Part shown: positions 2,465 through 23,108 of the stretch, piece by piece
Layout of the letters: each line of letters begins with the position of its first letter
How positions within the stretch are numbered: position 1 is the stretch's first letter
Virus record (IMG/VR): IMGVR_UViG_3300038457_000105
Location: 1-47,927 of that record
DNA from: a virus
Direction: 5' to 3' (one strand)
Length of the DNA stretch: 47,927 nucleotides
Made by a program: the position numbers and the translations under genes
Notes under the pieces: model-generated
The model's database searches: none
What the model saw: the letters and a program-made list of their open reading frames with translations, nothing else
What the model was told of the DNA's origin: nothing

Positions 2465-3335
2465 AGTCGAAGTCCAGCGGATGACGCAATGGTTCATGGA
2501 CAACTACTCCGACAGTAAAACGTCAGAGGAAATTGTCCGAGGCTTCCTTTCCGCTCTCGCCCAACAGGCTCAGCCGCTCTGCAAGTCGATTTGGCGCGGG
2601 TTTGAGTGCGAACTCGTCAACGGCCATTTGGGTCGCCACTACCATGACGATATGGAATTGAACGGCGACCTGTGGTGGAGTGACGATGACGTTCTTGGGT
2701 TGCTCGACGACGCCCAACAGACGCACCGATGCGATAACCCTGACGAGTGCGCGACCTGCAATCCGTATAGCCAACAGGCGCAGAAACATTGCGATTACGA
2801 AGTGTTGGCGGGGGACGGTTCGTGGTGGTGCTGCTTGCCCAAGGGCCATTGGGGCGAACATCGCGATGCGCGCTATTTTACCCAACAGGCACAGCCCGAC
2901 CATCACTTGCGGCGTAATCCGCACAATAACCAGGATTGGTGTGAATCGTGCAATTCGTATTCTTGCCAAGCCCAACAGGTGCAGCCGCTGACGGACGAGG
3001 ACGCGAGCCGCATTGCGCTTGCCGTATTCGATGCGGATGGTCCTGACTCGCTTGCTATCGTTCACGACATCGTGTTGAGATACGAAGCGCATACGCGCCG
3101 CCGCGACCGGATGGCCCAACAGGCGCAGCCCGAGATGCCGACGCGCGAGCAGATTCTTCAAGCACTTGCGAAGGCGAACGCATTTGATTGGGGCCAAGCA
3201 GCCGACGCCGTGCTGGCGCTCTTTGCGCCGAAGGAAACGCTCTCGGTCTGCGACTTCTGCGGCGGCGATCCGATGACCGACGACGATTGGCACAAGCACA
3301 TGGAAACCGTTCACAATGCACCGCCGCGCCATTAG
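2451..3335 (+). CDS. Modular zinc-finger protein with AQQAQP linkers, 294 aa
   Basis: Short Cys/His-rich beads are separated by a recurring linker (AQQAQP, SQQAQK, TQQAQP, AQQVQP, AQQAQP) encoded by a repeated DNA segment near 2560, 2711, 2770, 2880, 2971 and 3115. Beads include a C-x4-GHLGRH and a C-x4-GHWGEH element and several CxxC pairs. The C-terminus holds an ADAVLALF helix and a C-x2-C-x12-H-x4-H finger (CDFCGGDP...HMETVH), a canonical C2H2 spacing. The finger is repeated identically in the gene at 3643. The layout recalls modular phage accessory proteins built from exchangeable domains. Function unknown; nucleic-acid or protein binding is inferred. Confidence 0.8.
   Translation: MEPSEVEVQRMTQWFMDNYSDSKTSEEIVRGFLSALAQQAQPLCKSIWRGFECELVNGHLGRHYHDDMELNGDLWWSDDDVLGLLDDAQQTHRCDNPDECATCNPYSQQAQKHCDYEVLAGDGSWWCCLPKGHWGEHRDARYFTQQAQPDHHLRRNPHNNQDWCESCNSYSCQAQQVQPLTDEDASRIALAVFDADGPDSLAIVHDIVLRYEAHTRRRDRMAQQAQPEMPTREQILQALAKANAFDWGQAADAVLALFAPKETLSVCDFCGGDPMTDDDWHKHMETVHNAPPRH
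3201..3330 (+). repeat. 130-bp direct repeat, copy 1 (C2H2 finger coding segment)
   Basis: Identical to 3784-3913, starting at gccgacgccg and ending at ccgccgcgcc. Homology continues for about 25 more bases with one indel and one or two substitutions. The two copies are 583 bp apart and bracket the gene at 3360-3641. Confidence 0.95.
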
Positions 3336-3359
3336 CGCATAACGAGGATTTGACGAGAT

Positions 3360-3642: not shown

Positions 3643-4275
3643 TTGAAAACAGTATTGACTGAGATACCCTCACGCGAGCAGATCGCTGAAGCCCTTTGGC
3701 GCGCGTCGGATCATTGGACGGCTCACGAATGGCCGTTACGCAAAATCAAAACGACTGAGGCGTGGCAGACTTATCTGCGTCAAGCCGACGCCGTGCTGGC
3801 GCTCTTTGCGCCGAAGGAAACGCTCTCGGTCTGCGACTTCTGCGGCGGCGATCCGATGACCGACGACGATTGGCACAAGCACATGGAAACCGTTCACAAT
3901 GCACCGCCGCGCCCTTTAGCGCATAGCGAGGATTTGAAGATGTATCTACATAGCGAAGGCTTAGACCCCGAGATGGCTCGCGCGCTAGACGAAGATGCGC
4001 GCAAGCTGGAGTCGATGGGCATGGATGCCGGCGCAACGATCAAGGACATTCGCCTACGCTATTCCGATGCAAAAGTCGGTGACGTGGTTGAGTGCTGGAA
4101 CGATGATACGGGCGACGAGTGGGGTCCGTGTACGCTCGTTAAGTCATATCGCCGAAAAGGCAACGCGAAAGGCTGGATGGCGAAGTGGTGGGTCGGGCGC
4201 GACGAAGCCAAGGGTTACGAATGGCGCTTTACTGAGGAGTGCATCTACGTGCTCAACGGAGTCGAAATTCAGTGA
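3643..4275 (+). CDS. C2H2-type zinc-finger protein with extra C-terminal domain, 210 aa
   Basis: TTG start one base after the preceding stop, with AGGGAG upstream. Residues 8-50 form the PSREQIAEAL...ADAVLALF helical module, also present in the 294-aa protein. Residues 59-88 are the same C-x2-C-x12-H-x4-H finger, DNA-identical to the first copy. The rest is unique: an acidic helix (about 100-140) and a Trp-rich domain opening VGDVVECWNDD (about 145-210). It looks like a paralogue that took the finger by duplication. Role unknown. Confidence 0.8.
   Translation: MKTVLTEIPSREQIAEALWRASDHWTAHEWPLRKIKTTEAWQTYLRQADAVLALFAPKETLSVCDFCGGDPMTDDDWHKHMETVHNAPPRPLAHSEDLKMYLHSEGLDPEMARALDEDARKLESMGMDAGATIKDIRLRYSDAKVGDVVECWNDDTGDEWGPCTLVKSYRRKGNAKGWMAKWWVGRDEAKGYEWRFTEECIYVLNGVEIQ
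3784..3913 (+). repeat. 130-bp direct repeat, copy 2
   Basis: Perfect match of 3201-3330, in frame within the 210-aa protein, where it encodes the ADAVLALF helix and the C2H2 finger. Confidence 0.95.
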
Positions 4276-7345: not shown

Positions 7346-10300
7346 TTAGTGAATCGCGCCGGCGTCCTTGAGCGACTGCATATAGGTCGACCAGGCATCC
7401 TGAAGGCTAGCGTCGCGGTCGGGATCATCCGGATTCCCAACGTACTGCCCATACGCTTTCAGATACGTGCGCTTGGCCTTGCTGAGATCCCGGCGCATGT
7501 CTTCCGGGATGGCCTCCGACGTGCTCCCGAGGCCAGCGGCGTTTAGGATCGCCGCGGCGACGTCGTGCGAACTGATTCCCTTCCGGGCAGCGTCCTCGAC
7601 GGCAAAGCCAAGGAGCGGCACCGGGATGAAATGGCTGGCGAGGTATGTCGCGACCTGATGGTCCCGTACGTCCGGCGGCGCCTTCGGGTTCCAGATCGCG
7701 TGGAAGTCCGACTCCGGGCCTTTGAGGTCGCTGGTCGCCGCGTAGGCGCCGGTCGTGATGAGGTCGATCGCCGACCGCGTGAACGGGTTGGCGCGGCCGC
7801 CGAGGAACGATTCACCCTCGTAATAGACCTCGCCAGGATCGCCCTTGATCGCGCCCATCGCCGCGTTCGCCAGTTTGGAGAGATCGCGGCTGACGTCGGG
7901 CGGCGTGAAATACTGCTCGCCGCCAGCATCGTCTTTGCCGATCGCGATGCGCTCGTCGGGCGGCGCGTACAGCCCTTGCTGCCCCGGGTCTTCCTGCGAT
8001 GTGTTGTAGTTGCGAATCGCGTGCACGGGCGCGGTCTTGTACTGCGGCTTACGGACGAGCGCGTTGACCCAGAACTTCGTGTTGCCTTTCAGGAACGGCA
8101 TGAACATGAAGATCGCGCCCCATGCCGACTTCGGGTCCATATCGTAGTAATCGACCAGCGCTTGGCGTGTGACCGCTGCGGCCTCGGTGTCGGACATCTT
8201 GCCCTTCTGGACCGCGTCGCGGAATAGCGATACCGCAAACGCCTCCTCGCCCTTGCTGCCGAACGTGCGCGCGAAGTTCGTGTCCATCGACTTCGTGGCG
8301 GTTTTGTCGAGCCGCTTGGCCCAAGTCGCGTACCACGGCTCGTACTCGGACCATGCCTTGTCGGTAATCGGTTCGGTCATCGCGCGCGCGCGCTCGGCGC
8401 CGAACATCGTCTTGCGCGACTTCCCGAATTCCTGGACCGCACCGTTCTTGAGCGCACGATCGAGCCACGACGCGTACTCTTGAGCGCCGCCGACGAACTG
8501 TTCCGGCTTGACGAGCCCCAGCTGCAGCGCGACCGCCTTGGCGGCATTGTAGATATAGCCCATTTTCTCGGGCGTCGCGCCGCCGAGGTTCTTCAGCCCG
8601 CGCTGCGCGACGTCGTTGCCGGCGACGTTGACCGCCGGATGGTAGAAGAAGTTCGTGAAGATCGCCGCGCGCGTGAGGCCGATGAGGCGCTGGCCCCACG
8701 TCGTTTCCTCGCCCGGTAAGAACGAGCCGCCCTGGTCGACGTATTTCGAGAACTGGCCGTCCTTTTGCATGAACTTCCAGAGTTCGGGCGCGATCATCGA
8801 GCGCTGCATGATCGGCGAGCGCGTGTTCTGCAACGCGTTCTTGGCCGCGACGTATTCGGTCTGCTCCTTGAGATTCAGTCGCAGCGGATGTCCGGGCGGA
8901 TAGTGCGCATTGTTTTCCGCGACGATGCGGTCGACCGTTTCGTGCGGCTGCTCGGTCGCGCTGCGCGCAAACGGCTTACCCATTCCACGGCCGGCCGGTG
9001 TCGTGTAGTCTTCCGGCTTGATGTCGCGGCGCAGCGACTCCGGCGCGCGCGCGAGCGCATCGTCGAACGCAACGCCCTGCATCCGCTGCCGCCGCCAGTT
9101 CAGATAGTTCTCGGGGGCGGATGCCTTCGGGTCCCACGACGCGGCCGCGCGCGATTCGTCGACGTTCTTGAACGCCTTCGCCTGCGACGTGCTACCGCCG
9201 GGTGGCCCCGCGCCCTTGAGTTCTTCCGCGAGTTCGAACTGCGGGCCGAAGTCGTGAGTCTGCGACATCGGAAAGTACGTCTCGCGATTGAAGATGTCGC
9301 CCTTCGACGCGTCGAGCCGACCAGTGCGTTCTTGCTCGGCCGTCACGTGCTTGATGTCTTCGCGCAGCGCTTTCGCGCGCTTCGAGAGATCGACGTATCG
9401 GCTGAAGAATCGGGGGTCGGGTTTGAGCCCTTGTGAGAGGCGTACGGTCTCCCATGACTCGTCCGGTGTCAGATCGCCGAAGAACTTCATCATGTGCTCG
9501 TCCGCGATCGGCTCCTCGCGCTTAACGGTCGAGATCATCCCCTCGAGCCACTGCTTGCCCTCGACGCCGCTACGCTGGAAGACTTCATGGAACGGTGACC
9601 CGAGCCCGGCGGCCTTGGCCACGTTGTTCGCGACGTCGAGCGTGCGCGCGGACTTCGTTGCGGCCGAGGCTACCGCGCCGGCGGCGCCGCCTTCGGCCAT
9701 CGCCATCGGGTTGCCGGTGATTTCATAGAACAGCGTCTCGAACGCGGCCGTTTTCGGGTGCTCGACCTCGAACTGCGCCGCGCGTCCGGTCTCCGAGTTC
9801 GGGTATTTCTTGGCGAGATACTGAGCGACGGCGGGCGAGCCCATCCCGTACTGGTCCATCGCCTGCGCGGGGTCTTTGAGATACGCCTTCCATGCTGCCG
9901 CGACGTTCGTTTTCGGGTCGCGCGCGAGATCGATCAGGCCCTTCACCTGGGCGCGCTTGTCGCCTTTCATCGCGCGCGCGAACGCGTCTGGCCCGTTGTC
10001 CATCGTCGACGCGTTCATCAGGATGTTCAGTAGGTCTTGATGGCCGGCGAGTTCGTTGAGGCTTGAGTGCGCCATCGCATCGGTGCCAGGGATCTGCGGA
10101 ATGCGCGACTGTCCGGGATCACCAGGCGTATCCATCGGGTTCGTAGCCGCTGCAAGCCGCGCGCCGACATCGGCGGGGTACGCGCCGCCAGCCGTCGCCC
10201 CCGGTGGAAGCGGAGGACTGCCCCCGCGAGGCGCGGGTAAATGCGCGGCCGCGCCGGTTGGGAGCGGCGGCAACGTCGGGATGGCCAGGCCAGCGCGCAT

Positions 10301-10915
10301 CTTGTCGACGTAATCGCGCGTCTCTTTCGGCAGCGACTCGATCGGGTCGGCCATCCGGCCAGGTCCGGCGTTGTAGCCGATCGCGGCCTTGACCGGATCG
10401 CCCCCAGCCCGCTTGAGAACATCGGCCAGGATCGTCATCCCGACATGCACGTTGTACGCAGGGTCGTCGAGCCGTGAGGGATCGAACCCGTACTCTTTCG
10501 CCGTGTCCGGCATGACTTGCATGATCCCGCGCGCGCCAGCCGTCGACACAGCGGCGTTGCGGCCGCCAGACGATTCGATGCCGGAGATGATGCGCCCGAG
10601 GCGATCGAGCGCGAAGTCGCCGCCGCTGTACTTCGTGATCAGGTCGGAGACGATCGGGGTCGGCTGCGGTGGCGCGGGTGTGGCCTTGAGCGCTGGCGAG
10701 GTGCCGGGGTTAGCGCCTGGCGGAAGCGGCGGCAACGCGCCGGCCGGCAACGGCGGAAGACTCGATTGCGGCGGCGCTGATGGCCCAGGAGCGACGGGAA
10801 CGGGCGGCGTGGTGTATCCGCCCGTGGCGGTGCCCGGCTGCGCGCCAGCGGGAAGGGGCGGAAGCGTTGCGCTACCGGCAGTCGCTCCTGCGGGAAGCGG
10901 CGGAGCCCCGGCCAT
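7346..10915 (-). CDS. Large internal virion/ejection protein with lytic transglycosylase domain, 1189 aa
   Basis: The N-terminus is a Pro/Gly/Ala tract with recurring PPLPAGA units (residues 5-70 and again near 215-245). Residues 91-200 are an SLT (GH23) domain: GIESSGG with catalytic Glu114, GARGIMQVMP (127-136) and GYNAGPGRM (180-188). The remaining 950 residues are helical and include hydrophobic stretches (ARAAIFTNFFYHPAVNV; AIFMFMPFLKG). This layout resembles ejected proteins such as T7 gp16, which open peptidoglycan locally during DNA entry. TAATG overlap with the upstream gene. Confidence 0.88.
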   Translation of the reverse strand: MAGAPPLPAGATAGSATLPPLPAGAQPGTATGGYTTPPVPVAPGPSAPPQSSLPPLPAGALPPLPPGANPGTSPALKATPAPPQPTPIVSDLITKYSGGDFALDRLGRIISGIESSGGRNAAVSTAGARGIMQVMPDTAKEYGFDPSRLDDPAYNVHVGMTILADVLKRAGGDPVKAAIGYNAGPGRMADPIESLPKETRDYVDKMRAGLAIPTLPPLPTGAAAHLPAPRGGSPPLPPGATAGGAYPADVGARLAAATNPMDTPGDPGQSRIPQIPGTDAMAHSSLNELAGHQDLLNILMNASTMDNGPDAFARAMKGDKRAQVKGLIDLARDPKTNVAAAWKAYLKDPAQAMDQYGMGSPAVAQYLAKKYPNSETGRAAQFEVEHPKTAAFETLFYEITGNPMAMAEGGAAGAVASAATKSARTLDVANNVAKAAGLGSPFHEVFQRSGVEGKQWLEGMISTVKREEPIADEHMMKFFGDLTPDESWETVRLSQGLKPDPRFFSRYVDLSKRAKALREDIKHVTAEQERTGRLDASKGDIFNRETYFPMSQTHDFGPQFELAEELKGAGPPGGSTSQAKAFKNVDESRAAASWDPKASAPENYLNWRRQRMQGVAFDDALARAPESLRRDIKPEDYTTPAGRGMGKPFARSATEQPHETVDRIVAENNAHYPPGHPLRLNLKEQTEYVAAKNALQNTRSPIMQRSMIAPELWKFMQKDGQFSKYVDQGGSFLPGEETTWGQRLIGLTRAAIFTNFFYHPAVNVAGNDVAQRGLKNLGGATPEKMGYIYNAAKAVALQLGLVKPEQFVGGAQEYASWLDRALKNGAVQEFGKSRKTMFGAERARAMTEPITDKAWSEYEPWYATWAKRLDKTATKSMDTNFARTFGSKGEEAFAVSLFRDAVQKGKMSDTEAAAVTRQALVDYYDMDPKSAWGAIFMFMPFLKGNTKFWVNALVRKPQYKTAPVHAIRNYNTSQEDPGQQGLYAPPDERIAIGKDDAGGEQYFTPPDVSRDLSKLANAAMGAIKGDPGEVYYEGESFLGGRANPFTRSAIDLITTGAYAATSDLKGPESDFHAIWNPKAPPDVRDHQVATYLASHFIPVPLLGFAVEDAARKGISSHDVAAAILNAAGLGSTSEAIPEDMRRDLSKAKRTYLKAYGQYVGNPDDPDRDASLQDAWSTYMQSLKDAGAIH

Positions 10916-12255
10916 TACTTACCAGCCGGTACAGGTGAACCGTCGTAAAATTCCCAGCCCGTGTTCTGGGCATTTGGCCGAATCGGTCGGCCGTTCAAGG
11001 TCGGACCGCCGGCCGGCGGGTCTTTTTGCTGAACATTCGCGCCTGTGATCTGCGAGTACGTGCGCGCGATGCTTTGCGACGCGTCGTACTGTTCGGCACG
11101 CAGCATCGGCCCCTGGGTCTGGATGAACTGGTTGAGCGACGCGGCCTGGTCGACAAGCGACTGATAGAGTGGCGAGTTCCGCAGCTTCGCGTTCTGCGAC
11201 ATCGAATTGATTTGCGCGGTGACGCCGTCGAGCGACTTCTGCGCGCCGTCGAGTTCGCCCGACGAGCCGGTCAGCATCGCCTTGTAGATGCGGAAGTCGT
11301 CCTGAACGCCGGTGCGCTGGAACCGCTGTTTGGCGAGGTCGACCGACTGCAGGTAGGCGTTCAGCCGGGTTTGCGATTGGTCGAGCCGAGTCTGCGCGCG
11401 CTGCGCGTTCGCCATCGCGATGCGCTCTTTGCCCTGGAGGTCCGCATACTTGAACGTCAGCGTGCGATCGAACTGCGACTTGAGGTCCTTCTCGCGGTCG
11501 GTTTTGTACTCGTCTTCGTTCGCGAGGTGAATGCCGAGCGAGTGAATCTTGTCGATCTCGGCCTGATATTCTTCGCCGACGTGCCGGTCCTTAAACGCGT
11601 CGCTGAGGCCAGTCCCATCCGCGTTGAGATATTCGTTCAGCGAGTCGGCTTCGGCGAAGTTTCCGGCGGCCTTCAGCCGATCTTGGGTCTGTTTGACGTC
11701 CTGAAGAAACATCGCTGGCTGGTAGCCGCTCTTGGCATCGGACAGCATCTTCTCTTTGGCCGCGAGTCCCGTGAAGACTTGGTTCAGCCCGACCGGTGTC
11801 ATTGGCGTACGAACCTGTTCGGTCTTCAACCAGTCCGGCGCGTCGGGTGGCAACACGCGCTGTTCGGGCGGCGACGCCATCGCCTTGTCGACGTCTTCTT
11901 GCGTCCACGCGGAGAACGGCTTTTGGGGATTCAGAATGCCGGACAGCGTCTTCGGATCCCAGTTGCCGTCTTGACCCGGCGAGAAGCCTCGGCGCTGCAA
12001 AATCGGCCCGAGTATGGCCTTCATGGCCGGAGTGTTCGCAAGCGCCGGGTTCGCGGCGAGCGCGGGGGCGATCCGGGAAAGATGAAGATCGTCTTGCTGG
12101 GCTCCAGCCTGATCGGTGGCGGCCTTTGCCGCAGCGACTTTTTCTGCGTTCTCGGCGACGTTGACCGGTGCATCTTGAGCGGCCTGAGCGAGTTCGCCCC
12201 CGATGTTTACGGGCGCGACAGTCGGGACGGCAACGGGCGTGAATCCAGGGCTCAT
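10915..12255 (-). CDS. Internal virion protein, helical, 446 aa
   Basis: Start placed at 12255 (MSPGFTPVAV), giving an ATGA overlap with the upstream stop; a longer ORF from 12384 would run far into the ATP-grasp gene. Long Ala/Gln-rich helices with coiled-coil character (AQRAQTRLDQSQTRLNAYLQ; SQNAKLRNSPLYQSLVDQAA). No enzyme motif. Position between the ATP-grasp gene and the transglycosylase protein fits an ejected core protein. Confidence 0.82.
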   Translation of the reverse strand: MSPGFTPVAVPTVAPVNIGGELAQAAQDAPVNVAENAEKVAAAKAATDQAGAQQDDLHLSRIAPALAANPALANTPAMKAILGPILQRRGFSPGQDGNWDPKTLSGILNPQKPFSAWTQEDVDKAMASPPEQRVLPPDAPDWLKTEQVRTPMTPVGLNQVFTGLAAKEKMLSDAKSGYQPAMFLQDVKQTQDRLKAAGNFAEADSLNEYLNADGTGLSDAFKDRHVGEEYQAEIDKIHSLGIHLANEDEYKTDREKDLKSQFDRTLTFKYADLQGKERIAMANAQRAQTRLDQSQTRLNAYLQSVDLAKQRFQRTGVQDDFRIYKAMLTGSSGELDGAQKSLDGVTAQINSMSQNAKLRNSPLYQSLVDQAASLNQFIQTQGPMLRAEQYDASQSIARTYSQITGANVQQKDPPAGGPTLNGRPIRPNAQNTGWEFYDGSPVPAGK

Positions 12256-13634
12256 TCGGTAAGTCCTCCGGGCAGATCGTCGATGCCAGCCTCGACACAG
12301 GCTTTCGCGTCTTCGATGATCGCCTCGTCTACCCCGGTCGCCCAGTAGGCAAGGCCCGGCACGCGCAAGCCCTCTTTCGGCCATTCCATCGCTTCATCGG
12401 CGAGTTCCGACGCGACGTCGCCCACAGCGCACGACAGCCCGACGAGCCCCTCGGGGGCCGCGACCGCGAGGCCTTCGTCGGCCGGGTACATGAGTTCGTA
12501 ACCGAAGAACGGCGGCTCCCACAAATTCCCGACGTCGCCCCGTACGTAAACGCCGACCGCGGACCCTTCGTCCTCGCGATCGATGTGCTCGAAGGGTGCG
12601 GGCGGGACCGTTAGGCGCACGGTCACCGCGAATCGATCGCGCGCCGGAGCGGAATCTTCGCCTTGGCCGGTGGCGACGTACCATAGCCAGCGCGAATAGT
12701 CGTCGTATAATAGCGTCGCGGCCGGTTCGCTATCGTACCCGAAACGGCCGCACCACTCGAGGAAGTACGCCTGCCCATCTTTTAGGATCGCGTTGATATC
12801 GTAGACGCCGGGCACCGCGTACTTCTTCACAAAAATGTCCGTCAGCCGATCCCAGTTCAACATTTTTGCGATGGTTGGCTCGTCGTCTTCATACAGCCCG
12901 ACTGCGTTCCATGCACAGCCTGTGGATGGACCGACGTCGCCAGGCATGAACTTCTTGTGCTCGATGTCCCACTGATACGGACCGACCCACGCGCGGCCGT
13001 TCCACCAGCGCTGAGTCGATAGCGCGAACCCCGGCAAGCAGTCCTCAAGGAGACATGCGCCGTTGTGGCCGCGGCGTTTCACCAGACGCAGGTAGTCGAC
13101 GAGGTCCTCGGCATCGACGCACTTGTGGGTGGAGTCGCCGTCGATGTACGTGTCGGTCTTCCAGTAGACTTCGCGATCGAGATCGCCGCTGCGCGCGTAC
13201 GCGATGCACGCATCGACCGATTCGAACTGCTGGGTGGCCGGAGACTCGATCCCGGCTTGCTCGGCGATCTCGCGCCCGAACGCGCGGTCCATCTCGAGCC
13301 GGTCGGAGAATTCGGACGCACCGATGACGTGGACGCCCGCCGCGCGCGCATCGTCGGCCAGCGCGCCGAGGCCCTCTTTCGTCGATGCGGTCGAGTCGAA
13401 CAGCATGATCGTCGGCTCGCCGGCGCGGCTGCCTTCCTTCGCGTACTCAAGCAATTCGTACCACGAATTCGTCAGCGGGACGAGGCCCTCGCCGACGTGC
13501 TTTTGGTTGGGAATGACGCGCGGCGAGCCTTTGTGGAGTTCGCCGCGCCAAACCTTGATATCCGCCCCCTCGTCCTGTAGCCGACGCCAGAGACCGACTG
13601 CGGTGCAGAACTCGCTGGCGATCGCGATGCGCAT
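12252..13634 (-). CDS. PurD-like ATP-grasp protein in the virion operon, 460 aa
   Basis: Order of features matches glycinamide ribonucleotide synthetase (PurD): an N-terminal nucleotide-binding-like start (MRIAIASEFCTAVGLWRRL), a DRLEMDRAFGREIAEQAGI helix (111-129), a Lys at VYWK (159), LLEDCLPGFALS (195-206), DIEHKKF and GDVGPSTG (223-239), and FLEWCGRFGYDSEP (291-304). These are the metal/ATP-binding stretches of the grasp fold. The usual Gly-rich lid loop is not obvious, so activity is uncertain. PurD joins glycine to phosphoribosylamine; here the substrate is unknown. It sits between two internal virion genes with tight spacing, so the product may be packaged or may modify a virion protein. 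Confidence 0.8.
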   Translation of the reverse strand: MRIAIASEFCTAVGLWRRLQDEGADIKVWRGELHKGSPRVIPNQKHVGEGLVPLTNSWYELLEYAKEGSRAGEPTIMLFDSTASTKEGLGALADDARAAGVHVIGASEFSDRLEMDRAFGREIAEQAGIESPATQQFESVDACIAYARSGDLDREVYWKTDTYIDGDSTHKCVDAEDLVDYLRLVKRRGHNGACLLEDCLPGFALSTQRWWNGRAWVGPYQWDIEHKKFMPGDVGPSTGCAWNAVGLYEDDEPTIAKMLNWDRLTDIFVKKYAVPGVYDINAILKDGQAYFLEWCGRFGYDSEPAATLLYDDYSRWLWYVATGQGEDSAPARDRFAVTVRLTVPPAPFEHIDREDEGSAVGVYVRGDVGNLWEPPFFGYELMYPADEGLAVAAPEGLVGLSCAVGDVASELADEAMEWPKEGLRVPGLAYWATGVDEAIIEDAKACVEAGIDDLPGGLTE

Positions 13635-13637
13635 GCG

Positions 13638-14354
13638 CTAGACGGAAGTCAGGGTAGGCGTCGACGACGTGTTGGGCGTCGGAATGTCGGGCGCGAATCC
13701 GGGCGGTCCCGACGGCTGGTCGAGGGCGCCGGTTCCACCGGGGATCGTCGGCACGGACACGCCCGTTCCGCCGGCCGGCGTCGCGCCAGGGGACGCGGGA
13801 GGGCTCAAGCCTTTGATCCCCGTCAACACCCCGCCAAGGCCGCTAGCCAAGCCGGCACCCGCCGCCGTACCGCTAAGACCGTCGTTGCGCGCCGCGAGCC
13901 CGTACGAGTTCCCGACGCCGCTGTAGATGTTCGCGGCAGCCTGGGCATTCTGCGTGTTGGCACTAAGAGCCGCGTTTAATGCCTGGCTGATGGAATCGCC
14001 AAACAGCGACTTTGCAAGCGCGCCGATATTGGGCACGCCGCCGGCACTCGACAGGAACGAATTGACTCCGCCCTTCTGCGCATCGAGGATCGGCTGAAGC
14101 GAGACCGGCTGCGCCAGTTGGTTGGCCTCTGCCGTTGCCGCCGCTTCGGAAGATGCCTGATTGGCTTGATTCGCCTTCGATGCGTTGTTCGCAGCGTTCT
14201 GACTCGAAATCGTTTCGCCCACGCCGAACAGTGACACCGCCAGCGCGGCGATCGGGATGGCGGCCGGCCCATAGAATTCACGTCCGCGAATGCGGCCGAG
14301 GTTTGCCAGCGAGTCTGGCTCGTCGCGCTCGAGCAGCCAGCGATAGAGGCTCAT
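13638..14354 (-). CDS. Small internal virion protein with membrane segment, 238 aa
   Basis: A hydrophobic segment (PAAIPIAALAVSLFGVG, about residues 30-46) is followed by Ala/Asn/Gln-rich helix and a Pro/Gly/Thr-rich tail. This resembles the small ejected membrane-active core proteins of podoviruses (T7 gp14-like role, inferred from order and composition). ATGA overlap with the upstream gene. Confidence 0.75.
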   Translation of the reverse strand: MSLYRWLLERDEPDSLANLGRIRGREFYGPAAIPIAALAVSLFGVGETISSQNAANNASKANQANQASSEAAATAEANQLAQPVSLQPILDAQKGGVNSFLSSAGGVPNIGALAKSLFGDSISQALNAALSANTQNAQAAANIYSGVGNSYGLAARNDGLSGTAAGAGLASGLGGVLTGIKGLSPPASPGATPAGGTGVSVPTIPGGTGALDQPSGPPGFAPDIPTPNTSSTPTLTSV

Positions 14355-14797
14355 TTCGGGACGTCCTTTCGCTTGTGTAAGAAGACCAGGGCGTGCGGCT
14401 CGTCGCCGGTCTCGCGGACGATCGCGTGCCAGTGCTCGCGATTCTCGTAGAGCGCGACGTGCGCAATTTGATCGATGTCTCCGCGGTTGAGCATCTCGCG
14501 ATAGCTGTAGAGCATTGAGGCGAACGCAATCTTACCTTCGAGCGTCCCGTCGTAGTACGCGTCGGTTACCTCAAGGCGCTTGCCTTCGAGGTATTCGCCG
14601 AACACGGCGACCGTGGTGCCCTTGTATTTCACGCCACGCCAGGTCGTCGCGCGTTCGTGCGCCTGATCGCGCGGACCCAGCCCAAACTTGTCGCGGAAGG
14701 CCATTAGCATCGACTCGACCGCCGGGTCATCTGCCGGCAGTTCGAGCGTCTCCATGTCGGCGGACAGCGCCGCGACGCGTTCTTTCGTAGTCGTCAT
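14351..14797 (-). CDS. Hypothetical virion-region protein, 148 aa
   Basis: Mixed alpha/beta protein with VAVFGEYLEGKRLEVTDAYY and a C-terminal HVALYENREHWHAIVRE segment with several His and Trp. Proteins at this place in podovirus late operons are sometimes acetyltransferase-like, but I see no clear acetyl-CoA loop and do not assign one. Overlaps neighbours by 4 bases on both sides. Confidence 0.75.
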   Translation of the reverse strand: MTTTKERVAALSADMETLELPADDPAVESMLMAFRDKFGLGPRDQAHERATTWRGVKYKGTTVAVFGEYLEGKRLEVTDAYYDGTLEGKIAFASMLYSYREMLNRGDIDQIAHVALYENREHWHAIVRETGDEPHALVFLHKRKDVPK

Positions 14798-15622: not shown

Positions 15623-18130
15623 CTACACCCTCGGCGTAAGCGTACGGTCAAGCGGCATGATGCCCCACACGGTAACGGCCCAGATTTGCGGTGCCGGCTT
15701 GCCCGCGGCGCCGGTGACCGAGACCGAAAGCTGCGCCATGTAGCCACGCGGAATCGTTCCTTGGCCGGGCGTTCCGATCGTTTTGATAAAGTGCGTGTCG
15801 ACCGAGAGGTCCGTAATCGTCCATACGATAGGGGCCTTATTGTCGATTTGCAAGGTGACCGTCGCTTTGCCGTATTGCAATGGCGGTAGGTCGAGCGTGA
15901 TCACGGTGTACTGCTTCTCGTTGCGCGGCTTGTTGCTGCGCGAGAATGGCGCCATCCAGGAGAACGTTTGCGGGTTGCCCAGATCATAGTCCGCATCGAC
16001 AAACCAGTAATCGACCGCAGCGAGTATCCCACCAGCGGGCTGCCGGGCAGCCACGATTTCATTGAAGCCTTGGCCTGCGCCGTTGGCGACGTAGTTGGCC
16101 GGACGCGCCGCCGTGAAGTCCAGAGCGCCTGCCGACGGCGGCGCAAACTCCAGTTGGCCGAGCCAGATGCTGCCCGGGATGAAGTACCCGTACGTTTCGT
16201 TCAGCAGTGGGAACGATAGGTAGTACGTCATGTTCGCGAATGAGCCGACCGACGTTTGCATCTGCGCTGGCGTGAGGGCTGGTGACGTTGGCGTTGCGTT
16301 GAATAGCCCGCGCAACGCTTCGGACACGTATTGCGGCGCGGAGCCATCGAACCAGTAGACGCCGTTTTCGGTCAGCCAGAACATGCCGCCGTTTACTGGC
16401 GCGACCGAATGTCGCGAGACGCAACCGATGTTGAATAGATCGCGCTGGATGAAGCTGCTCGCGGAGTCGCCGTAGACCGCCCACGTTTCCTGTCGCGCAA
16501 GCGCCATCAGCAGCGTTCCCACCTCGGCCAGCGCGATCGGGTCGTCGCCGTAGAAATCATCGTAGGTCGTGTTGTAATTCGGCGGCACCGTATACTGATT
16601 GATCTCGCCAGCCTGCATCTCAAGGACTTGCTGGATTTGGTTGAACTCCCACGGCCGGCCAAGATTGGAATACCACAGTTGGTTATCCGGGAAGTTGTTC
16701 GTCGAGGTATCCTGGACGTTCGCGTACACCCAGATACGATTTTTGTGGATGCAGATGGATGCGAAGTTCGCGGCTCCGGCCGGCACACCGTACGATCCCA
16801 TGACCGTAGGCGGCTGGTCACGCTGCGGTTGCAGCTGTGCGTTGCCGGTGATCGCTGCGTCGGGCGAGATGTCGAAGAAGTTGCCACTGACTCCGAGCCC
16901 TAGCACTGCCGAATTGCCAACGAAGCAGTATGTGGGCTGGAGATTCGACTGCCGGTAGATGTTGGTCGTATACGGCAGTCCGTCGAGCGTGTGCACGCCG
17001 GTCCAGGTGTATGCCGGTCCACTGAACGGCGAGATGTTGACGCCGAATCCGACGACACCACTGCCAACCGATGGCGGCGTAACGAATTGATTGAGGTCGA
17101 CGCTGGACTCGGAAATGGTTCCGTCCGGCATGACCGTTTGTCGCGTGAACAGATAGTAGACGGTCTCGTTCGAAAGGCCGCCGTATATGCTAAAGCCGGC
17201 GTCATGGACGATCTGGTTCGTGACCTGGAACGTCGTGCCAGTGACGCCGCTGACGGTCAGAATTTCTTGCTGCGTGCCCGAATCGATGACGACTTTATTT
17301 CCGTTCGCGATATTCGTCATGTTCGTCGGCGTGATCGTGACAGGCGTTCCGGTCGTCTGGATACCCGATCCACCGTTCGAATTGACTGGCCCCGTGCTGT
17401 AGGCTTGCACGCCCGAGACGTTGATATTTCCGTACGCGACTGGAGGCGGATACTGCCACGCGAACATATACGCATAAATCACCGGCTGCGCGATGTTGAA
17501 TCCGACCGCATGATTTTTCGAAAAGACCGCCGTGAACGTGGTGCCAGTAACAGCAAAAACGACAATCGTTTCGGCATTCACGCCAGTGTCGACGAGCAAA
17601 ACCTGACTGAGGCTGATGCCAGCCATCGATACGGGGGTGACCGTGACCGTACCAGGGTTGACCGCGACCGTTGATGTCGTGAGGTTGATCGGGCTGGTCT
17701 GGGTCGTAGCAAATAGGCGTTGACCACCGTTCGTATAAACGACGCCAGCGAATTGAACCGCCTGATCGAAGGGCACACTATTGGCGACTTGCGAGAGCTG
17801 CGGCGCTGCGCTCGTCGTGACCGGCGTATAAATATAGCAAGTCCACGCGCCAGCACTGTTAAGGCCGCCGACGAGATACGCTGGGATGCTGTTCACGCCG
17901 TAGACGCCGAGCATGAATCCGAAGACGACCGCGACGGACGATAGCACAGCTGAGAAATCGTAGAGCAGCACGCGCCCAGCTTCGGTTGTCAATGCGTCTT
18001 CGATAATCGCCGTGTTCGCGCCGACCGCCTGAACGGCGAATCCGGGATCAACAGTCGGTCCGGATTTCGTGTAGTTGACGCCCTTGAACGGTCCTAGCTC
18101 GAGGAGCGGCTCGTACTCGGCCGCGGCCAT
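15623..18130 (-). CDS. Large tail-hub/nozzle-like structural protein, 835 aa
   Basis: All-beta protein. The start (LLELGPFKGVN...DPGFAVQAVGANTAI...GRVL) and the central METWAVYG-like region with GGMFWLTENGVYWFDG (about residues 575-590) resemble beta-propeller tail-nozzle proteins of P22 gp10 type. Its place after the connector and receptor-binding genes fits a tail role. Assignment is by pattern and order only; a different large tail or head-closure protein is possible. Confidence 0.75.
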   Translation of the reverse strand: MAAAEYEPLLELGPFKGVNYTKSGPTVDPGFAVQAVGANTAIIEDALTTEAGRVLLYDFSAVLSSVAVVFGFMLGVYGVNSIPAYLVGGLNSAGAWTCYIYTPVTTSAAPQLSQVANSVPFDQAVQFAGVVYTNGGQRLFATTQTSPINLTTSTVAVNPGTVTVTPVSMAGISLSQVLLVDTGVNAETIVVFAVTGTTFTAVFSKNHAVGFNIAQPVIYAYMFAWQYPPPVAYGNINVSGVQAYSTGPVNSNGGSGIQTTGTPVTITPTNMTNIANGNKVVIDSGTQQEILTVSGVTGTTFQVTNQIVHDAGFSIYGGLSNETVYYLFTRQTVMPDGTISESSVDLNQFVTPPSVGSGVVGFGVNISPFSGPAYTWTGVHTLDGLPYTTNIYRQSNLQPTYCFVGNSAVLGLGVSGNFFDISPDAAITGNAQLQPQRDQPPTVMGSYGVPAGAANFASICIHKNRIWVYANVQDTSTNNFPDNQLWYSNLGRPWEFNQIQQVLEMQAGEINQYTVPPNYNTTYDDFYGDDPIALAEVGTLLMALARQETWAVYGDSASSFIQRDLFNIGCVSRHSVAPVNGGMFWLTENGVYWFDGSAPQYVSEALRGLFNATPTSPALTPAQMQTSVGSFANMTYYLSFPLLNETYGYFIPGSIWLGQLEFAPPSAGALDFTAARPANYVANGAGQGFNEIVAARQPAGGILAAVDYWFVDADYDLGNPQTFSWMAPFSRSNKPRNEKQYTVITLDLPPLQYGKATVTLQIDNKAPIVWTITDLSVDTHFIKTIGTPGQGTIPRGYMAQLSVSVTGAAGKPAPQIWAVTVWGIMPLDRTLTPRV

Positions 18131-22571: not shown

Positions 22572-23108
22572 CTACGTCGCCGCTGCGTGGCGCGCGATGT
22601 ACGCTTGCGCCCGCGATACCAAGGTCGGATCGTTCTCCAGCATGCCAACGATTGTGTTACACCAGTTGCAGAGAAGGGCGCGAACGGCGTTTGTTTTATG
22701 GTCGTGGTCCACGTTCATCGTCCTTTCTTGAGGCTTCTCGCAAATCGCGCAGCAGTTGTTTTGACTGTCTTGCATCGAAACAAATTGCTCGCTGCTGATC
22801 CCATATTTCTTTTTCCTGGACCAGTGTGACTTTTCGTTTATTCGAATAGGGTTTCCGCGTTGATTGAGGACTACTCGCTCGCTGATCTTCTTCTTTTTCT
22901 CGTCCGGTTGATTTCGATACCACTCTCGATGATAAGTTTTATACGATTCCCATTCTTCGGGAGTGAGTTCTGACTTTCGTCCGCGTTTTATGCCTTTCGG
23001 TTTCGGTGGACGGTCAGCAGCGTCTACGGCCCGTTTTTTGCGCTTGTACTCCTTTTGATAATCGCGTATCGCCTGTTTTCTCTCGGGCGACAAGTCTGCA
23101 TATGCCAT
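22572..23108 (-). CDS. Recombination endonuclease VII-family nuclease, 178 aa
   Basis: Residues 118-150 carry CCAICEKPQE, then NVDHDHKTNAVRALLC and NWCNTIVGML, the His-Me finger/zinc pattern of endonuclease VII (CxxC, DHDH, LCxxCN). The N-terminal 75 residues are strongly basic and include RDYQKEYKRKKRA. The gene is visibly AT-richer than its neighbours, uses AAA/AAG-rich lysine runs, interrupts the head genes, and has its own promoter just upstream. These are signs of a recent arrival, as for free-standing homing nucleases. It could also resolve branched DNA before packaging. Confidence 0.9.
   Translation of the reverse strand: MAYADLSPERKQAIRDYQKEYKRKKRAVDAADRPPKPKGIKRGRKSELTPEEWESYKTYHREWYRNQPDEKKKKISERVVLNQRGNPIRINEKSHWSRKKKYGISSEQFVSMQDSQNNCCAICEKPQERTMNVDHDHKTNAVRALLCNWCNTIVGMLENDPTLVSRAQAYIARHAAAT

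Follow-up and report, generated by a model that had tools for sequence, protein, structure and literature searches.

The gene at 12252–13634 (minus strand) of the window, by which we mean the whole 47,927-base virus record that was analysed, encodes a 460-residue protein (P0001; ATG start, TGA stop) that, as modelled, adopts an ATP-grasp fold of the PurD (GAR synthetase) type, and that we assign by sequence to a PurD paralogue family with cellular and phage-specific branches. The reading that we favour, at a probability of about one half, is that the protein would be a divergent ATP-grasp amide ligase of this PurD-derived family, joining a carboxylate and an amine other than those of PurD, with a target tied to the phage ejection proteins.

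The PurD-type fold and its substrate sites

When the window protein was compared with the PDB using phmmer, PurD was the best match (5vev, E 3.9e-8) and the top ten entries were all PurD (GAR synthetases). The NCBIfam purD model matched at E 7e-10, and comparison of a profile with the window sequence gave 99.1% probability (E 1.8e-18); Pfam GARS_A was found at E 0.0049, which is under its cut-off, and nothing in PHROGs matched the protein. Four PurD motifs that had been quoted in an earlier note on this DNA were all located, in order, in the ORF. On these scores the resemblance to PurD is far above chance.

An AlphaFold model of the window protein, built with 42 relatives, had a pLDDT of 67 and a pTM of 0.69; most of the ATP-grasp core lay at 80–90, and the C-terminal domain was poor (pLDDT about 30 at residues 342–398). 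Foldseek and VIA-align ranked GAR synthetases highest (2yw2, Z 26.7, rmsd 3.5, 377 residues aligned), and a PurD-type three-domain ATP-grasp fold is present in the model, its C-terminal part being poorly modelled; structure prediction thus agrees with the ATP-grasp assignment made in the earlier note. A relative (L086) that was modelled with phage and cellular rows reached a pLDDT of 94.3 and Z 35.2 to 2yw2, and this model matched GAR synthetases at Z 31–35 as against Z 22–24 for PurT, PurK and biotin carboxylase. No full-length PurD-like match was found in a viral structure library, where the best hits were other ATP-grasp proteins.

To compare the substrate sites we aligned 16 true PurD proteins, 37 cellular paralogues, 27 phage or prophage rows and the window protein, using Salmonella PurD numbering. 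All 16 true PurD proteins carry RxGDPE, and the PROSITE pattern PS00184, R[LF]GDPEx[EQIM], takes in the glycine-binding Glu. Neither a PS00184-type motif nor GGREH was present in any of 63 phage and 72 cellular relatives or in the window protein, which reads RFGYDSEP at the PS00184 position and SEFCTAVG at the position of the N-terminal GxGGREHA loop. This loop, which we take to be the phosphoribosylamine-binding loop of PurD, is absent from all relatives, and the family is also without GPE at positions 71–73. Relative to PurD the family has Arg for Lys105, Glu for Asp214, Asp for Tyr271, Asn for Gly273 and Thr for Asn288, and it has lost Asp293 and Glu295, the latter a glycine-site residue that is replaced by Ser, Thr or Leu (Ser in the window protein). 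At the Mg-site Asn288 the window protein has Cys (C295) where the rest of the family has Thr. The glycine ligands of Aquifex PurD, Asp212, Arg287 and Glu292 (PMC8880213, from which the ATP-binding residues mapped here were also taken), correspond to positions 214, 290 and 295 in the Salmonella numbering.

Most ATP-site residues are kept in the window protein, namely E114, K159, E197, K227, E293 and R297 (E102, K145, E187, K216, E286 and R290 of PurD), with R117 replacing Lys; the changed positions are K105 to R, D214 to E, E194 to A, N288 to C and E295 to S. What the protein shares with GAR synthetase (PurD; TIGR00877, PF01071/PF02843) is therefore the overall fold, the ATP-grasp core and Lys159, Lys227, Glu293 and Arg297, whereas it differs in being without GGREH and RxGDPE, in the substituted Mg site (Asn to Cys, or Thr in relatives) and glycine site (Glu to Ser, Thr or Leu) and in having a new Asp279 and Asn281. 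These motif changes indicate that the glycine site is altered and, the N-terminal loop being lost, that the phosphoribosylamine site is probably altered as well.

A rival explanation is that the gene encodes a true GAR synthetase and acts as an auxiliary metabolic gene boosting purine synthesis, as with marine viral 'GART'. PurD is the nearest solved fold, and viral phosphoribosylamine-glycine ligase (GART, K11787) was read as a purine gene in a 2024 ocean survey (PMC11360552). However, the window protein scored 38.3 bits against the purD equivalog model (TIGR00877), far under the cut-off of 288 (phage relatives scored 81–92 bits), the substrate-binding motifs are missing family-wide, cells hold the paralogue and true PurD together, and the gene sits in a late structural module. 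We rejected this explanation on the motifs and the cut-off and regard it as highly improbable. Judged by its sequence, the window protein is not a GAR synthetase and would have no role in the purine pathway, and the view in the earlier note that plain purine synthesis was unlikely is upheld, since the PurD substrate motifs are gone. Viral 'phosphoribosylamine-glycine ligase' annotations that have been taken to mean enhanced purine synthesis (PMC11360552) may include members of the PurD-like family described here.

Similar departures have been described in cells. The haloarchaeal 'extra' PurD-like proteins Hlac_1553 and rrnAC0307 are without GARS_N and the Mg sites and have lost the Asp of R[LF]GDPE, and in 2011 such proteins were judged, on their missing motifs, not to be GAR synthetases (PMC3261824). 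The window protein shows the same motif departures, and haloarchaeal members (L164, L180) fall in the cellular clade of the family; the haloarchaeal proteins differ in being cellular and outside an ejection module, and the likeness to Hlac_1553 and rrnAC0307 is by description, not by sequence.

The window copy also departs from its own relatives, in that it keeps Glu187 where other family members have Gln and has Ala (A204) at Glu194, which they keep. Because of this Ala and of the Cys at the Mg-site Asn, the window copy may be weaker, changed or inactive. It could accordingly be supposed that the protein is a degenerate, catalytically inactive ATP-grasp protein, whose part in the ejection module would be that of a structural protein, an ejected protein or a binding scaffold, and besides the E194 to A and N288 to C changes the very long branch of the window protein (see below) and its poorly modelled C-terminal domain would fit such a role. 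Against this, most of the other ATP-site residues are kept, and across the remaining phage family the Lys, Glu, Asp and Arg residues hardly vary, as would be expected if the enzyme were active; we consider loss of activity unlikely, though it deserves serious weight.

The paralogue family and its branches

A tblastn search over 50,697 phage records returned one family member, in MW202796 (Manatee Spring), whose PurD-like gene (L003:19752-21083) has no annotation although it is intact. Through this record we reached 49 IMG/VR contigs and then more, and 80 loci were kept. The phage branch comprises about 60 non-redundant sequences, with prophage or phage contigs (L104-L110) from Paraburkholderia, Rhodanobacteraceae, Methylococcaceae, Sphingomonas and other bins. 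The cellular branch, from archaea, CPR and other bacteria, is represented by a set (L111-L183) that includes at least Micrarchaeota, Woesearchaeota, Nitrososphaerota, haloarchaea, Patescibacteria and scattered bacteria. True PurD above the cut-off was found in 16 of 22 genomes that carry the paralogue or a prophage version, some of which may be incomplete. Further PurD matches in phage records came from Acinetobacter, Pseudomonas Y11 and Staphylococcus SA 1306, and were annotated purD or left unannotated. One apparent 'phage' PurD match was discarded as bacterial: AGRM01000005 (L053), although filed among phage records, is a Salmonella contig of 501 kb on which purH-purD stands next to rRNA.

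In the tree PurD was split from all other sequences with 100% SH-aLRT support, and the cellular and phage groups had supports of 92 and 94, respectively. The window protein formed a very long branch, at 3.7–5.2 changes per column; in a tree with fewer rows it stood beside the cellular rows (support 90), and an AU test rejected neither its placement with the phage group (p 0.26) nor that with PurD (p 0.30). By BLAST it scored 122 bits with the best cellular row, 86 with the best phage row and 58 with the best PurD, and the profile scores were 110.6 bits (cellular) and 107.1 bits (phage) as against 54.0 bits for PurD. The family motifs LE[FW][TC]xR, EHK and D.N appear in the window protein as LEWCGR, IEHKK and YDIN, and it is these shared derived residues that tie it to the paralogue family. 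By these comparisons the window copy is the most divergent member, with a somewhat better match to the cellular than to the phage branch, which makes it possible that it was recruited independently of the copies in other phages.

Gene order in the window and in other phages

It can be seen in the window that the PurD-like gene lies in a late module on the minus strand, in the order hub, small ORFs, 148-residue protein, 238-residue protein, PurD-like protein, 446-residue protein and 1189-residue transglycosylase protein. The hub is an 835-residue tail hub or internal virion-like protein (15623–18130; phrog_511 E 2.9e-11, phrog_578 E 3e-4), and the 1189-residue protein (7346–10915) is a gp16-like internal or tail lytic protein with an SLT transglycosylase domain (PF01464 E 9.7e-19; phrog_2013 E 7.6e-22). 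The 238-residue protein (13638–14354) was assigned by its size and position as a small, gp14-like ejection-type protein and the 446-residue protein (10915–12255) by its position as a gp15-like one, neither having a family match in Pfam or PHROGs. The 148-residue protein (14351–14797) corresponds in position to the GNAT, cupin or cupin-SET protein of other phages; GNAT homology was not detected for it. Tail spike genes precede the 238-residue, PurD-like, 446- and 1189-residue genes in the same-strand run, and terminase, portal-like and capsid genes are also in the window, as is a recombination endonuclease VII-type gene within the structural operon (22572–23108, minus strand; PF02945 E 1.4e-18).

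The 238-residue gene, directly upstream, ends three bases before the PurD-like ATG, and the PurD-like TGA overlaps the ATG of the downstream 446-residue gene (12255–12253) by four bases (ATGA, 12255–12252). The codon-position GC of the PurD-like gene (0.67, 0.46 and 0.79) is like that of its neighbours, which argues for a resident gene. The window version of the gene occurs in just one other record, the near-identical contig L001, which is identical to the window across the gene and its neighbours, and searches with the hub, 446- and 1189-residue proteins found close kin in the near-identical contig 3300037140_000274 only, the remaining matches covering the transglycosylase domain alone. A stretch of about 158 bases is present in two copies in the window (3200–3356 and 3783–3940), with cross-matches between the window and L001 at 97.5% identity.

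Other phages have a comparable arrangement, in which hub or stabilisation genes are followed by a GNAT (148–151 residues), cupin or cupin-SET gene, three ejection-type genes (of about 200–300, 300–650 and 500–1670 residues), the PurD-like gene and then fibre or lysis genes, and this order is kept in prophages. The annotation is anchored by matches to phrog_598 'DNA ejection' in L100, to phrog_578 head closure and phrog_1249 acetyltransferase in L086 and to an acetyltransferase in MW202796. A cupin was found in the upstream slot of L074 and, weakly, of L020, and proteins with a C-terminal SET domain take the GNAT slot in three contigs (L083:916-1791, L091:4927-5826 and L092:2476-3372), their N-terminal half appearing cupin-like by eye. 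In the phage branch the PurD-like gene directly follows the third ejection-type gene and shares a four-base overlap with the preceding gene in 43 of the 52 non-redundant phage contigs that have an upstream ORF, although many of these are close relatives and do not represent 43 independent events. From these overlaps the PurD-like genes are probably translationally coupled to ejection-type genes.

In the window the gene instead lies between the first (238-residue) and second (446-residue) predicted ejection-type genes. Neither BLAST nor profile comparison revealed homology between the 148-, 238-, 446- and 1189-residue proteins and their GNAT and ejection counterparts in other phages, so the setting common to the window and these phages rests on order, size and two family matches. 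Of what the earlier note had proposed about position, the late-module setting stands, while 'ejected-type' describes the 238- and 446-residue proteins by size and position only; likewise, placement beside ejection genes is kept in other phages but the exact slot is not. Phage homologues were not found outside late operons with purine genes, and no conserved purine neighbour was seen for the cellular paralogues, whose loci lie outside phage operons.

Candidate substrates and partner enzymes

ATP-grasp enzymes convert a carboxylate to an acyl phosphate, which is then handed to an amine. The retained phosphate-handling residues argue for ligase chemistry in the family, and the alterations at the glycine and ribose-phosphate sites point to different substrates. 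In the mechanism we propose, the ligase would phosphorylate a carboxylate other than glycine, because the glycine-binding Glu is gone, and would join it to an amine other than phosphoribosylamine, because the N-terminal GGREH loop and the GPE motif are gone. The coupling with ejection genes points towards a target that belongs to assembly or entry and would be made or used alongside the ejection proteins. It might be a virion or ejection protein altered while the particle is being assembled or, should the enzyme itself be packaged, some host component that is modified once entry has occurred.

A partner for the ligase is suggested by the cellular loci, six of which (L141, L160, L169, L170, L179 and L182), spanning archaea, CPR and bacteria, have a GNAT gene at +1, co-oriented and no more than about 20 bases away. 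A seventh neighbour (L161) is weak, and another weak GNAT match lies at a different offset; as candidates were picked by size and spacing, the rate is biased. In phages the GNAT gene is four genes upstream of the PurD-like gene. This pattern suggests that a common substrate or pathway may link the ligase to an acetyltransferase-type enzyme, and the cellular PurD-like and GNAT proteins may constitute an unstudied pair of enzymes.

An alternative is that the amide ligase synthesises a peptide or small metabolite within infected cells, one that serves, for example, to take over the host or to exclude superinfecting phages, and that the late operon determines only when it is expressed. Small-molecule synthesis is common among ATP-grasp enzymes and the cellular paralogues are paired with GNAT genes outside phage operons, yet the tight coupling to ejection genes across phages that otherwise differ favours an ejection-linked target, without proving it, and a small-molecule product seems to us improbable.

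Returning to the ejection-linked ligase, a bolder and rather doubtful extension is that the PurD-derived ligase and its GNAT or cupin-SET partner would form an undescribed protein-modification set acting on ejection proteins, or injected to modify the host, which unrelated phages would have recruited independently (the window phage from the cellular branch, the others as their own clade). Phage DNA enters the cell through a channel built from ejection proteins, whose enzymatic modification has, to our knowledge, hardly been explored; a ligase coupled to ejection genes in many phages offers a direct and testable entry point.

In the literature we searched, we came across no report linking an ATP-grasp or PurD-like enzyme with virion or ejection proteins, and none that covered this phage gene or its setting. 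The nearest phage systems are the ATP-grasp, amidoligase and GATase clusters of LUZ24-like and phiEco32-like phages, which likewise encode ATP-grasp carboxylate-amine ligases with an unnamed product (PMC3890496, PMC10580990). The ATP-grasp protein of UFV-P2, however, is shorter (291 residues), and its gene lies in the early region alongside those for amidoligase, GATase and GGCT-like proteins, whereas the window has a PurD-type protein in a late virion module.

A small protein of MW202796 (L003:11739-11984, UOF82053) is annotated 'ubiquitin', and in L086 and L106 the PurD-like gene is immediately followed by one for a similar small protein. We rejected the MW202796 protein as a ligase substrate, as its sequence is Cys-rich and zinc-ribbon-like and is not that of ubiquitin.
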